A stretch of DNA of 54,767 bases. Source: an uncultured Lachnospiraceae bacterium. GTDB lineage: Bacteria > Bacillota > Clostridia > Lachnospirales > Lachnospiraceae. The position numbers and the translations under genes were made by a program. The DNA is taken from assembly GCA_947652925.1 (NCBI GenBank), contig CANTEW010000014.1, forward strand, positions 1 through 54,767. The letters run 5' to 3'. The notes beneath the pieces are model-generated. The model searched no databases. It worked only from the letters and a program-made list of their open reading frames with translations, and was not told where the DNA came from. This document shows positions 19,622-25,962 of this stretch, one piece after another. Within the stretch, counting starts at the first letter, position 1, and each line of letters opens with the position of its first letter.

Positions 19622-21421
19622 CTATGATCTATCCCGTTTCTTGCGGAAGATGGCTGCGCCGCTCCCCGCTGCTGTCAGCATCAGCACCACCAATGCCCCA
19701 ACAGGCGTATTATCCATGGTCGAAGCATTTTTGGCATTGGAACTTATACTGCTCCTTGCCGCCGTAGTCGTGACACCTGCTGTCCTATACGGTGTCGTGT
19801 ATGGATATCTGGTGGGTGTGACAGTAGCCACATTCCTGATGTAGAAATTCACACTCCTGGTCGTCACTTCCCTCTGCGGCTTCCATTTCCTCCCTGTATA
19901 GATCTCTCTCTGATAGTTCACTTGGAGAGCATACGGTACGGAAGTATATTGATTGGTACTCAGTGTGAAAGCATCTTTAAACTGGTACTCACCCGGTGTA
20001 TAACCATTCCCCGATGTAGAAGTAGTGCCCGAAGTCACGACCTTGTCCCTTTTCCTCCAGGAACCACTGGCCACTCTCGTCCCGCCGGATGTGACCACAT
20101 TCCAATTGACAGGCACATATCTGGTCGCCCTGCGCACTGGGTGCAGCTCCTGGGGTTCCGTCGGCCCATACCCTGCTCCCGTCGCATAGAACTGCAGCGT
20201 CGCTCCGGAACGGTATGTGGCTCCCTCGTTGATCCAGTAAAGACCATTCTCAGCTGGCTGTGCCTGCTGGTCAGGGATATCTGTGGGCGTGATACTCGGA
20301 GAGGGCCGCGGCGTATCTGTCGGTATGGATGAAGGCAATGATGTAGGCTTAGGTGTGGATGATGGAGTGGGTAAAGGTGTGGACGACGGTGTGGGTGTGG
20401 TCGTACTCACGACTTTCTGCAATTGTGAACCGTTGCCGCTCACAACCCCTTCCAGATCCACATCCCCAAACTTATCCTTAAGCCTGAGCTGTACCTCCCC
20501 CTCTGGGAGGTACATGAAGATCCGCCCTTTTTCATCTGAACGTATGACCGAACCGTACAGGGTGTACGGCGCCGATGCAACTTTCACGTCGTTGAGCGTA
20601 TGATCCTCATTTGCGCGCAATCCCTGGATCAATACTGAATAGAGATCTTCTCCTTTCTCATTCTGGGGTCTGATCCCGGAAAACTCCGTCTGGATATTCC
20701 CGCCTTTCACCACCACTTTAGAATAAGGACTGCACTGGATCCCGCCCTCTGCCTGCAGGATGCCTTCCCCGTCGATCGTTATCTGTTTATCATTATCAAC
20801 GCGTATACTGGCCAATATATTCTTCTGTCCAGCCAGATGGAGCTTGACTGCCCCTGAACCGCTCGCCACCTGCAGCGCAGGGCTCTTGGCGATGTACAGG
20901 TCTTCAAATGTAAGATCCGCCCCGCCTGCACTGTCCACAAGGATGCTCCCGTCTGAGACAGTCCCCCCGATCGTAAGCGCCCTATCCTTCCGGACTGTCA
21001 GCTTCTCGCCGTCCGTGGCATCATATGTATAAGCATTCTCTGAGATACCCACATCTACTTTGAAACTCCCTGTGTCTCCGGAGATATCGTCCTGCGACAG
21101 GCTTTCTTCTCTTTCTTCTTTTTCCTCTTTTGATCCCTCGTCAGAAGGATCAGAGACTGTAGACACAGACAGGGAACTGGAAGAGACCTTGTTGGAAGAG
21201 GTGCTGTTACCGCTCAGATCTTTCTCTATCTTCTTTGCTTTTTTTGCCTTTGTCTTTTTCCCTTTGGCCGTATCTGCGCTCTCACTTTCTTTCTCCTCTG
21301 TCTTGCCCGACTCTTTACTGTCTCCGGAAGAAGCAGAAGCCAGCGCTACCGAAGGCCCCGACAACACCATGGAGCCCGCCAGGAGCAACGCCAGTAATGT
21401 CGCCGCACGTTTGTTTCGCAT
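19622..21421 (-). CDS. Surface protein with beta-helix carbohydrate-binding-like region, Pro/Thr linker and wall-anchor-like C terminus
   Basis: A secreted 599-residue protein. A signal peptide ends near residue 30 (ALASASS). Residues about 35-115 are low-complexity, Ser/Lys/Glu rich. Residues about 120-330 show repeated short beta strands (for example GADLTFEDLYI, VKLHLAGQKN, ITIDGEGIL, VVVKGGNIQT) as in right-handed beta-helix carbohydrate-binding domains of Clostridia. A Pro/Thr/Ser linker follows (about 340-385), then a Tyr/Thr-rich globular part. The C terminus has STMDNTPVG, a hydrophobic stretch and FRKKRDRS; this resembles the TGDxxP-type anchoring signal of Lachnospiraceae surface proteins with Gly replaced by Met. 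Its ligand is unknown. Confidence 0.72.
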   Translation of the reverse strand: MRNKRAATLLALLLAGSMVLSGPSVALASASSGDSKESGKTEEKESESADTAKGKKTKAKKAKKIEKDLSGNSTSSNKVSSSSLSVSTVSDPSDEGSKEEKEEREESLSQDDISGDTGSFKVDVGISENAYTYDATDGEKLTVRKDRALTIGGTVSDGSILVDSAGGADLTFEDLYIAKSPALQVASGSGAVKLHLAGQKNILASIRVDNDKQITIDGEGILQAEGGIQCSPYSKVVVKGGNIQTEFSGIRPQNEKGEDLYSVLIQGLRANEDHTLNDVKVASAPYTLYGSVIRSDEKGRIFMYLPEGEVQLRLKDKFGDVDLEGVVSGNGSQLQKVVSTTTPTPSSTPLPTPSSTPKPTSLPSSIPTDTPRPSPSITPTDIPDQQAQPAENGLYWINEGATYRSGATLQFYATGAGYGPTEPQELHPVRRATRYVPVNWNVVTSGGTRVASGSWRKRDKVVTSGTTSTSGNGYTPGEYQFKDAFTLSTNQYTSVPYALQVNYQREIYTGRKWKPQREVTTRSVNFYIRNVATVTPTRYPYTTPYRTAGVTTTAARSSISSNAKNASTMDNTPVGALVVLMLTAAGSGAAIFRKKRDRS

Positions 21422-23339: not shown

Positions 23340-24566
23340 TTATCCCTCTGTCTCTTCCGGCTCGTCCATGCCCGTCCTCATGTTTAACTTACAGGATCCT
23401 TCCCGCTCCCGTATCAATCCCATCCCTGTGTCTCTGGAATAGAGATAGACTTTGGGCAGGTCATAGCTGTTGAAGAAATACCTCCCCTCAACAACGGAAT
23501 AAGCGCCTGTCCGCTCAAAGATCATCAGATCGCCGGGTTTTGGATCTTGCATGGGCAGCTGACGTACCAGCACGTCGGACGGGATCGATAAAGCCCCGCA
23601 CACATCCCACAAAGTCTCTTCCGACTGGGGATCCGGATCCTGGGGCAGATGTGTACAATGGGGGATCCGCGCCCCCTGCTCCCCGCCATCATACTCCAGA
23701 TGATGGGTCCCTCCGTCCACGATACAATAATTTTTACCGCCCTGGCTCTTCACATCCACCACCGTCGTATAATAAGAACCGCAGAAAGCAGTCAGGAAAC
23801 GCCCCATCTCCAGCACCACCGTCCCGGGAAACTCCAATTTGTGCAGCAGACCGTCCAGATCTTTCAGTATCTGATCCAGATCCTCTTCCGCATCCCCGTC
23901 AAAATAAGGCACGCCGAGTCCCGGACCATATTCCAGGATCTTCACCTCAGATCCCAGTCCTTCTCTCAGTTTCCTGCAGAGTCCATCCAGCATCTCAAGC
24001 TCTTCGCCCACCTGCGCCAACCCATTTTTCTGTGTACCGGAATGATACTGGATGCCGATGATATGGAGGTTTTCATACTCTTCTTTCTTGGAGATACATT
24101 TGAGCAGCGTCTCCTCATCCATACCGAACTGATCTTTGCTGGTAAGGCGCAGCAATACCTGTATCTGCTGGTCCTGCCATTTTGCACAATACTGCAGTAC
24201 TTCCATCTGTTCCAGAGACTCTGCCGTAAAGATAGACCTGCCCTCAAATTCTCCCATCATCCGCGCTGTATCCAGCGTAGCTTTATAGATCCCGGACACC
24301 ACCACAGTATCCATAGGGATCTTCGCAGCCTCACAGATATGGAATTCTCCCGGGGAACTGACTACAAAACCATCCACGCGGTCTTTCAGCGTCTCTACCA
24401 GAAACGGATTGGCATTTACAGAAAAACAGATCCTTGTACCCTGTCTTGTGATCCCTTTTTTGACAGCAGCCACACGCGCCTGTACCTGATCCAGATCAAA
24501 GACATAAGACGGCGTGAGGTTTTCTTTATATTGTTCTTTACCACCCTGTTTGACAATTTGTAACAT
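23340..24566 (-). CDS. PLP fold-III decarboxylase homologue lacking the PLP lysine
   Basis: A 408-residue homologue of diaminopimelate/ornithine/carboxynorspermidine decarboxylases (alanine-racemase-like barrel plus C-terminal beta domain). Recognisable motifs: YHSGTQ (about 190), YGPGLGVPYF glycine loop (about 235), LEMGRFL in place of EPGR (about 275), GALSIPSDVL in place of GPLCTPLDVL (about 335) and RTGAYSVVEGRYFFN near the C terminus. The segment normally reading YAVKAN is FSVNAN: residue 51 is Asn (codon AAT) instead of the Schiff-base lysine, and the active-site Cys is Ser. It therefore probably does not act as a classical PLP decarboxylase and may be a pseudoenzyme or carry a new function. 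GGAGGGATATC precedes the ATG. It is the first gene of a unit with an EamA transporter and a hydrolase. Confidence 0.82.
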   Translation of the reverse strand: MLQIVKQGGKEQYKENLTPSYVFDLDQVQARVAAVKKGITRQGTRICFSVNANPFLVETLKDRVDGFVVSSPGEFHICEAAKIPMDTVVVSGIYKATLDTARMMGEFEGRSIFTAESLEQMEVLQYCAKWQDQQIQVLLRLTSKDQFGMDEETLLKCISKKEEYENLHIIGIQYHSGTQKNGLAQVGEELEMLDGLCRKLREGLGSEVKILEYGPGLGVPYFDGDAEEDLDQILKDLDGLLHKLEFPGTVVLEMGRFLTAFCGSYYTTVVDVKSQGGKNYCIVDGGTHHLEYDGGEQGARIPHCTHLPQDPDPQSEETLWDVCGALSIPSDVLVRQLPMQDPKPGDLMIFERTGAYSVVEGRYFFNSYDLPKVYLYSRDTGMGLIREREGSCKLNMRTGMDEPEETEG

Positions 24567-24626
24567 GATATCCCTCCAAAATGATATTCAGGTAAACCCC
24601 TGTATCTTTCTTTTTTACAGATAGAA

Positions 24627-24669
24627 AAACCGGAAGCTACCTATCCTATCACATAGGGGCTTCCGGTTT
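24627..24669 (-). terminator. Terminator of tRNA-Gly
   Basis: Eleven-bp perfect stem 24627-24637 with 24659-24669; on the minus strand the second arm ends in TTTTT. The 21-base loop contains further short pairing. It lies directly after the tRNA and about 60 bases before the PLP-fold gene. Confidence 0.8.
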
Positions 24670-24676
24670 CTCATAG

Positions 24677-24749
24677 AGCGTGAAACGGGACTCGAACCCG
24701 CGACCCCAACCTTGGCAAGGTTGTACTCTACCAACTGAGCCATTCACGC
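24677..24749 (-). tRNA. tRNA-Gly (GCC)
   Basis: A 73-base cloverleaf: acceptor GCGTGAA/TTCACGC, D-arm GGCTCAGTTGGTAGAG, anticodon loop TTGCCAA flanked by CAACC/GGTTG giving anticodon GCC, T-arm GCGGG TTCGAGT CCCGT. The discriminator is U as is usual for glycine. CCA is not encoded. Confidence 0.97.
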
Positions 24750-24849: not shown

Positions 24850-25962
24850 TTATCCTGCGCAGGATTTGAAATTGTATAGAGGGCGTATGATATCCTGGAT
24901 CTCCACAGTCTCTTTGATATCCTCCATGATACTCTCCATATCTTTATAAGCCATAGGGCATTCATCCAGTGTCCCTTTCCCGATGGATGTGCTGTACACT
25001 CCTTTCATCTGTTTTTTAAACTCAGACACAGTAAAGGACTGCTTTGCCTCCGACCGGCTCATCAGCCTCCCGGCCCCATGGGGCGCCGACTGGTTCCAGT
25101 CATCACTGCCTTTCCCCACACAGATCAAAGAGCCGTCCCTCATGTTGATCGGTATGAGGAGCTTCTCCCCCTTCCTGGCCGAGACCGCCCCTTTCCTCAA
25201 GATCATAGCATCTGTATCAATATAATTATGTGTCGTAGTGAACTGCTCCGCCACATGCAGCTTCATCCCCCTGATGATCTCGTCCACCATGGCCTGCCGG
25301 TTCAGCCTGGCATAGTCCTGGATGATCTTCATATCATGGATATAATCCCGGAACAGATCCCCGGATACATAGGCTAAGGTTTTCGGGATGTCCTCTCTCT
25401 CCTCCTGCCCCAGTGCCTTGTACCCCTCCTCCTGATAATACTCTGCCACTTCCAGCCCCAGATGTCTGCTGCCTGAGTGGACCACCAGATAGAGACTGCC
25501 CTCCTCATCTTTATCCACTTCGATAAAATGATTCCCGCCGCCTAAAGTCCCAAGGCTCTTCTCTGCCCGGAGCGCATCGATCTTTTTATAACAACACAGT
25601 CCCTCCAGATCTATATCCTGAAAATATCTGTGTGTCTTTTCCCGGATCTGGGGTCCAGAAGGGATCTTCGCATAGATGAGCTTGTCCAGTTTCTGCAGTT
25701 CTATATGCCTTTCTTTGATCCGCACAGTCTCCATGCCGCATCCGATATCCACCCCCACCAGGTTGGGTACCACTTTATCCCCGATCGTCATCGTCGTCCC
25801 GATCGTACACCCGGCCCCGGCATGGATATCCGGCATCATCCGCACCCTGCTCCCCTGCACGAACGCCTGGTCCAGCAGGAGGCGCACCTGCGCGATGGAC
25901 GCCTCGTCAACAACATCTGTAAATATCTTTGCTCCATTGTATCTTCCTTTTAATATGATCAT
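24850..25962 (-). CDS. rtcB: RtcB-family RNA-splicing ligase
   Basis: GTP- and Mn-dependent ligase that joins 2',3'-cyclic phosphate (or 3'-phosphate) and 5'-OH RNA ends, used in RNA repair. It is the compact 370-residue form. Metal-binding residues are seen in GVDIGCGM (Asp72, Cys75), GGGNHFIEV and HSGSRHLG; the His that takes GMP is in APHGAGRLMSR (about 294). GGAGA lies eight bases before the ATG. It is divergent from rpmB and single: no rtcA or rtcR neighbour is visible. Confidence 0.94.
   Translation of the reverse strand: MIILKGRYNGAKIFTDVVDEASIAQVRLLLDQAFVQGSRVRMMPDIHAGAGCTIGTTMTIGDKVVPNLVGVDIGCGMETVRIKERHIELQKLDKLIYAKIPSGPQIREKTHRYFQDIDLEGLCCYKKIDALRAEKSLGTLGGGNHFIEVDKDEEGSLYLVVHSGSRHLGLEVAEYYQEEGYKALGQEEREDIPKTLAYVSGDLFRDYIHDMKIIQDYARLNRQAMVDEIIRGMKLHVAEQFTTTHNYIDTDAMILRKGAVSARKGEKLLIPINMRDGSLICVGKGSDDWNQSAPHGAGRLMSRSEAKQSFTVSEFKKQMKGVYSTSIGKGTLDECPMAYKDMESIMEDIKETVEIQDIIRPLYNFKSCAG

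Follow-up and report, generated by a model that had tools for sequence, protein, structure and literature searches.

Teichoic acids are D-alanylated through the Dlt operon, which comprises DltA, DltB, DltC and DltD. In the butirosin pathway, BtrK (PDB 2j66 and 7ru7) acts as an L-glutamyl-[BtrI acyl-carrier protein] decarboxylase. This enzyme is reported to decarboxylate a carrier-bound amino acid, BtrI-S-glutamate (PMC7857480). Another described system is the exosortase-A-associated pair represented by the NCBIfam models TIGR03098 and TIGR03099. Antizyme inhibitor is a eukaryotic protein that acts through antizyme. It has been described as an inactive homologue of ODC that regulates ODC activity (PMC2217671).

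Here we compare these systems with a BtrK-like homologue of fold-III (alanine-racemase-fold) decarboxylases, 408 aa long, that is encoded at 23340..24566 on the minus strand of the window, i.e., the whole 54,767-nucleotide stretch analysed, from an uncultured Lachnospiraceae bacterium (contig CANTEW010000014.1). Its genome (G000) is considered together with three congeners, G001, G002 and G004, G002 being the sister species of G000. The copies of G000, G001 and G002 are devoid of surrounding operon genes and are called orphans below.

A BtrK-like homologue with an intact frame

The open reading frame extends over 408 codons at exactly 23340-24566 (minus strand) with no internal stop, in agreement with the intact frame recorded in the initial annotation, and a ribosome-binding-site-like GGAGGG, read by eye, precedes it (24572..24577, minus strand). 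Both PF02784 and PF00278 score above the Pfam cut-off, and Pfam as well as the fold model give the protein an alanine-racemase-type barrel and a C-terminal sheet domain. The AlphaFold2 model, in which the predicted fold is intact, has a mean pLDDT of 89.7.

By sequence, BtrK (the top PDB relative, E about 1e-24) and diaminopimelate decarboxylases (DapDC) come closest among proteins of known structure, and BtrK is also the closest fold according to Foldseek (7ru7, TMq 0.85), with further matches to SbnH and DapDC. This double proximity comes with only 23% identity to BtrK. The top NCBIfam match of the protein is TIGR03099 (145.9 bits) and TIGR03098 matches a ligase of G004 (197.1 bits), but both scores are far under the respective model cut-offs (478.45 and 592.35 bits), which sets the locus apart from the exosortase-A-associated pair. 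Identity amounts to 61-75% with the three congeners, among which the G004 copy is operon-borne, and to 25-48% with the other relatives among the matches listed.

A single further match to the protein occurs elsewhere in the genome of the window; it is partial, 25% identical and presumably LysA. A heterodimer with a close paralogue is thus unsupported.

Catalytic positions across the family

Residues were counted in 94 homologues, i.e., the window copy and 93 loci that all originate from its own bacterial family, and in 119 sequences obtained by adding 25 further loci, of which 118 cover each of the sites 51, 68 and 327. The added loci remain from 33 extra ones after removal of eight duplicates recognized by an exact stretch; seven of these are loci already fetched and the eighth, L192, belongs to another genome, whose residue 51 is uncounted. 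L223 does not reach positions 51, 68 and 70, and L139, located on a truncated contig, does not reach position 327. The final lysine counts take in the matches that pass the E-value limits and leave out weak ones.

The Schiff-base lysine for PLP is missing from the window protein and replaced by Asn51 (codon AAT, 24414..24416, minus strand): in the motif FSVNAN, this residue aligns with the lysine of both BtrK and DapDC, as had been proposed from the sequence. Column 51 of the 94 homologues contains 92 K, one N (the window) and one A (G002), and 116 of the 118 sequences carry Lys51, the only exceptions being the window (Asn) and its sister species (Ala). The lysine loss is therefore not confined to one strain, but the conserved Asn51 subclade that the initial annotation proposed to look for does not exist, Asn occurring in one of 118. 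Searches of open-licence full texts aimed at lysine-less fold-III proteins yielded no paper.

The serine recognized earlier in place of the active-site cysteine is likewise borne out, Ser327 of the CGALS motif (codon 23586..23588, minus strand) aligning with this cysteine; the column shows 92 C, one S and one gap (L139) in the 94 homologues, and Cys is found in 117 of 118. Though lysine-less, G002 still has Cys327. A third loss had been overlooked in the initial annotation: position 68 is Val in the window (codon 24363..24365, minus strand), whereas E or D occupies it in 115 of 118 homologues, and the only non-acidic residues of the family at this site are those of the three orphans (Val in the window, Met in G002 and Gly in G001). 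At position 70, cysteine is changed in two of the three orphans (S, G).

Other motifs are kept. The EMGR motif (23799..23810, minus strand), previously considered as a departure from EPGR, is the norm of the family, with Met as second residue in 65 of 94 homologues and Pro in none of the 94. Its Glu253 and Arg256, as well as Gly214 and Gly216 of the glycine loop, are present in 119/119 homologues and Tyr356 in 118/119. The C-terminal motif GAYxxxxxxxFN, described as kept, holds for GAY but not for FN, residue 366 being Leu in 113 of 119 members and Asn in three, including the window and G002.

The conservation of Glu253, Arg256, the loop glycines and Tyr356, in which the orphans share, would suit a lysine-independent PLP or PMP chemistry, where the cofactor would be held by the EMGR Glu and Arg and by the glycine loop without any need for an internal aldimine. 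Some fold-I PMP-dependent dehydratases do react without internal aldimine; we know of no fold-III precedent. However, E68 and C327 are altered as well, and G002 also lacks the lysine yet has a different residue in its place, making such a chemistry very improbable.

A lysine at another position could also have taken over the role of Lys51, a possibility that the initial annotation had named as a refutation; no such lysine was found, K95 and K144 both occurring in Lys51-bearing members. Residue 95 is Lys in 118 of 119 homologues, Lys51-bearing ones included, which excludes it as a substitute. Residue 144 is Gly in 108 of 119 but Lys in the window protein, within a conserved GNQFG stretch, so that an aldimine formed by K144 might keep the enzyme working. 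Lys144 is found also in L109 and L212, which both keep Lys51 and thereby exclude it as the marker of a relocated lysine; moreover, G002 retains Gly144 without having Lys51, and E68 and C327 are changed. We give almost no credence to this relocation.

A conservation of 90% or more among 87 members singles out 69 columns, the four copies of the genus and L151-L153 having been left out of the 94 homologues for this definition. The window copy departs from these columns 11 times, G002 and G001 eight times each and G004 twice, against a median of one mismatch in the 87 members outside the genus, of which only two have at least eight (L139 with 13, being truncated, and L143 with nine).

Two side observations concern individual members. 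The orphan of G001 (L063:12822-14051) keeps the lysine, has Gly at residue 68 and exhibits a change from Gly to Asp in the SGTQ motif; it possibly represents an intermediate stage. In two genomes of one genus (L082:5741-8557 and L086:4716-8057), the decarboxylase frame runs into a C-terminal extension that harbors a transglutaminase-like domain together with Ig-like or Rib matches, not all of them above cut-off, which is a surprising combination in a cytoplasmic enzyme.

Genomic context and the Dlt-like operon of relatives

Upstream of the gene, a tRNA-Gly(GCC) (24676..24749, minus strand) is common to G000, G001, G002 and G004. Between this tRNA and the gene lies a terminator-like hairpin followed by a T run (24624..24672, minus strand; fold -30.6 kcal/mol, z -7.9), which was missed by a consensus terminator scan with a loop limit of 8; a similar inverted repeat with a T run was recognized by eye in G001, G002 and G004. 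The scan gave no promoter-like site between the hairpin and the decarboxylase homologue. Further upstream of the tRNA, the window encodes an RtcB-family RNA ligase (24850-25962, minus strand), also present in G002.

Downstream, an EamA-family transporter gene (PF00892; 22392..23303, minus strand) begins after 37 bp and overlaps by 4 bp a gene for an alpha/beta hydrolase (Hydrolase_4, PF12146; 21469..22395, minus strand). The gene at 19622-21421 (minus strand) encodes a protein of 599 aa that looks secreted by eye, with a C-terminal hydrophobic segment and a basic tail; it has no match in Pfam or NCBIfam, and relatives adjoin the hydrolase gene in three congeners (about 40% identity in G001 and G004).

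In most relatives, the neighborhood of the decarboxylase is of another kind. When G004 proteins served as queries within 8 kb and on the same strand, 84 of the 94 loci proved to have a DltA-like AMP-ligase; the small carrier protein was retrieved at 83 loci, the MBOAT at 70 and the DltD-like protein at 37. The counts are minimum values, since distant members may have escaped the search and some contigs are cut short; the thresholds were set in the script, and for the window the scan covered flanks of 1.5 kb, the remainder being taken from the list of open reading frames. The frequent adjacency of a carrier-protein gene is a further resemblance to BtrK. The order in G004 is tRNA-Gly, hairpin and T run, ligase, decarboxylase (with the motif KAN), carrier, MBOAT, DltD-like, EamA and hydrolase, whereas in the window, G001 and G002 it is reduced to tRNA-Gly, hairpin, decarboxylase homologue, EamA and hydrolase.

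The likeness of this set to the Dlt operon lies in the matches of the G004 ligase to DltA models, of the MBOAT to a DltB model and, weakly, of the carrier to DltC. None of them reaches the curated Dlt cut-offs, and the set of the relatives differs from Dlt in including a decarboxylase. The G004 gene that follows the MBOAT has no family match and is called DltD-like here from its place and size. The operon with a BtrK-like carrier-linked decarboxylase (G004, L062:666-6091) is widespread in this bacterial family; at E 1e-15, a decarboxylase homologue was found in 90 of 397 sampled genomes of the family, and at E 0.001 none was found in G003, an assembly that is 61% complete. Such an operon may attach a decarboxylated amino acid, rather than D-alanine, to a surface polymer. 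No paper on an operon of this kind was found in searches of open-licence full texts, subscription papers being outside their scope.

The set is missing from the genome of the window. Orthologues of the ligase, the carrier and the DltD-like protein were found in none of the searched assemblies of the orphan-bearing genomes (G000 98%, G001 91% and G002 98% complete). The best matches in G000 are at 21% identity for the ligase (E 1.9e-9) and at E 0.088 for the carrier, with no match for the DltD-like protein in this assembly. Other MBOATs of G000, G001 and G002 match that of G004 at 34-41% identity, those of G000 at 34-37%, and G001 has a nearly full-length one at 39% (G001:C152). A Dlt-type set was thus not found elsewhere in the 98%-complete assembly of G000. 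The protein also differs from BtrK in this respect, its assembly showing no cognate ligase or carrier protein, in addition to its lack of the PLP lysine, the cysteine and the acidic residue 68.

The three adjacent genes of the window had been seen as a module, in which the decarboxylase homologue, the EamA exporter and the hydrolase would jointly handle one small molecule. Their shared direction, the short gap and the overlap are consistent with this, as is the order decarboxylase-EamA-hydrolase kept in G000, G001 and G002. However, EamA and hydrolase genes lie near the decarboxylase in only four of 94 loci, all of the genus of the window. In G004, the carrier, MBOAT and DltD-like genes separate the decarboxylase from EamA; the EamA and hydrolase genes are thus found downstream of the complete operon and of the orphaned gene alike, and their adjacency to the decarboxylase in the orphans falls where the three intervening genes are missing. 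The proposed coupling to export and hydrolysis consequently finds no support besides adjacency, and the module is an improbable reading.

Selection acting on the orphaned gene

If the gene had become dispensable after the loss of the operon, it might be a slowly decaying relic in which the lysine was lost independently and recently in each lineage, before any stop or frameshift appeared. The residues that differ between lineages at K51 (N, A), C70 (S, G) and E68 (V, M, G) point in this direction, and so do the additional mismatches of all three orphans at conserved sites.

Against it, the three orphan copies all have open frames and dN/dS is low. The dN/dS between G000 and G002 is 0.164 at a dS of 0.96, close to that of the lysine-bearing pairs nearest in dS (0.169, 0.155 and 0.131, for pairs with dS of 0.5-1.7), whereas six lysine-bearing pairs at dS >2 have lower values (0.057-0.149). 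Two further lysine-bearing pairs gave 0.201 (L082-L086, the fused frames, dS 1.55) and 0.392 (L115-L124, dS 0.03); in total, 13 of the 28 pairs had an unusable dS and four of the remaining 15 are within the genus. Among the neighbors compared between G000 and G002, dN/dS is lower for EamA (0.066) and MalQ (0.053) and equal for the hydrolase (0.167).

Branch codon models were fitted on the tree with G004 outside, and the tests on omega hold for this one topology, the stem estimate having hit its bound on another. Tip omegas are 0.159 and 0.144 for the lysine-less copies and 0.122 for G001, and omega = 1 is rejected on each tip (2dlnL 22.6 and 18.5 for the lysine-less ones, 33.2 for G001) and on both lysine-less tips jointly (2dlnL 147.4). 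The stem of G000 and G002 has an omega of 0.293 that is indistinguishable from 1 (2dlnL 2.2), and the orphan clade evolves faster than the rest (omega 0.162 vs 0.071, 2dlnL 11.9, with saturated background branches), both of which would fit decay.

In neutral simulations, runs taken to 0.475 substitutions per site accumulated 12.7 stops on average and none of the 1000 stayed stop-free, ruling out an open frame kept by chance through long neutral drift. A short neutral spell would leave some frames open, 11% of runs being stop-free at 0.05 substitutions per site. Simple decay, which had been doubted from the sequence, does indeed seem unlikely in view of the open frame and of a dN/dS of about 0.15, significantly below 1 on both lysine-less tips of the one tree used; the slowly decaying relic is the less probable outcome, though one to be taken seriously. 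Taken together, the dN/dS values and the mismatches in the core suggest that constraint persists on the gene and has been lifted from parts of its conserved core, including the catalytic positions.

Phylogeny and order of events

The sister relation of G000 and G002 has a support of 96-100 in three five-genome trees and of 81 in a seven-genome tree. For the branching of G001 relative to G004, genes of the rpoB/rpoC region give supports of only 43 (seven-genome tree) and 49-53 (five-genome trees). The decarboxylase gene itself favors a tree that unites the three orphans to the exclusion of G004 (one-ratio lnL -6463.1 vs -6473.5 and -6477.9), though a faster rate in the orphans could distort this preference.

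The simplest history would start with a single dismantling of the operon in an ancestor of the orphans. The acidic residue would have disappeared next, the lysine after it in the line leading to G000 and G002, and last the cysteine in G000. As Asn and Ala differ at site 51, two independent losses of the lysine are possible, in which case the low dN/dS could mostly reflect the time before these losses. The Asn codon AAT of the window is one nucleotide change away from a Lys codon, whereas the Ala codon GCG of G002 is at least two away, so that the loss in G002 is unlikely to be a single last step, which again speaks against a recent relic.

From enzyme to probable pseudoenzyme

In our view, the window protein is probably a pseudoenzyme that descends from a carrier-protein-dependent decarboxylase of a Dlt-like operon and has outlived both its operon and its lysine. 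The ancestral operon would have used the AMP-ligase to charge the carrier protein with an amino acid, and the BtrK-like enzyme to decarboxylate this amino acid on the carrier, as BtrK does; the product would then have been handed over to a surface polymer by the MBOAT and DltD-like proteins. On one side of the decarboxylase gene the ligase, and on the other the carrier-MBOAT-DltD-like block, appear to have been lost in this genus, and the disappearance of ligase and carrier would have removed the substrate of the decarboxylase. Residues of the catalytic site are changed, presumably as a later step: all three orphans lack E68, two of them K51 and C70, and one C327. The gene as a whole shows purifying selection, and the barrel, the glycine loop and both the Glu and the Arg of EMGR are kept.

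The lack of the lysine in a gene with an open frame and a low dN/dS makes a pseudoenzyme likely, as the initial annotation had proposed; the idea is plausible and now comes with a likely evolutionary cause, the loss of the operon. The present role is most likely that of a non-catalytic barrel that would bind a ligand or a protein. Judging from sequence, the retained Glu and Arg, glycine loop and GAY would allow the binding of a ligand or cofactor without an aldimine.

Antizyme inhibitor offers a precedent for such a role, as a decarboxylase homologue working without catalysis, with the differences that it is eukaryotic and acts via antizyme, whereas the window protein is bacterial. More tentatively, the decarboxylase might have been kept as a non-catalytic binding protein once the operon was dismantled, having shed its lysine in the common ancestor with different residues there now, and might thus be a prokaryotic counterpart of antizyme inhibitor, of which G004 would hold the catalytic-looking form and G001 an intermediate.

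One genus thus appears to hold a graded series, from the complete operon of G004 to G001, with the lysine and without the acidic residue, then to G002 without the lysine, and finally to the window without lysine and cysteine. This natural series makes the transition from enzyme to pseudoenzyme testable with natural sequences. The finding also brings into view the system of origin, the Dlt-like operon and its carrier-linked decarboxylase, which is common in the family.
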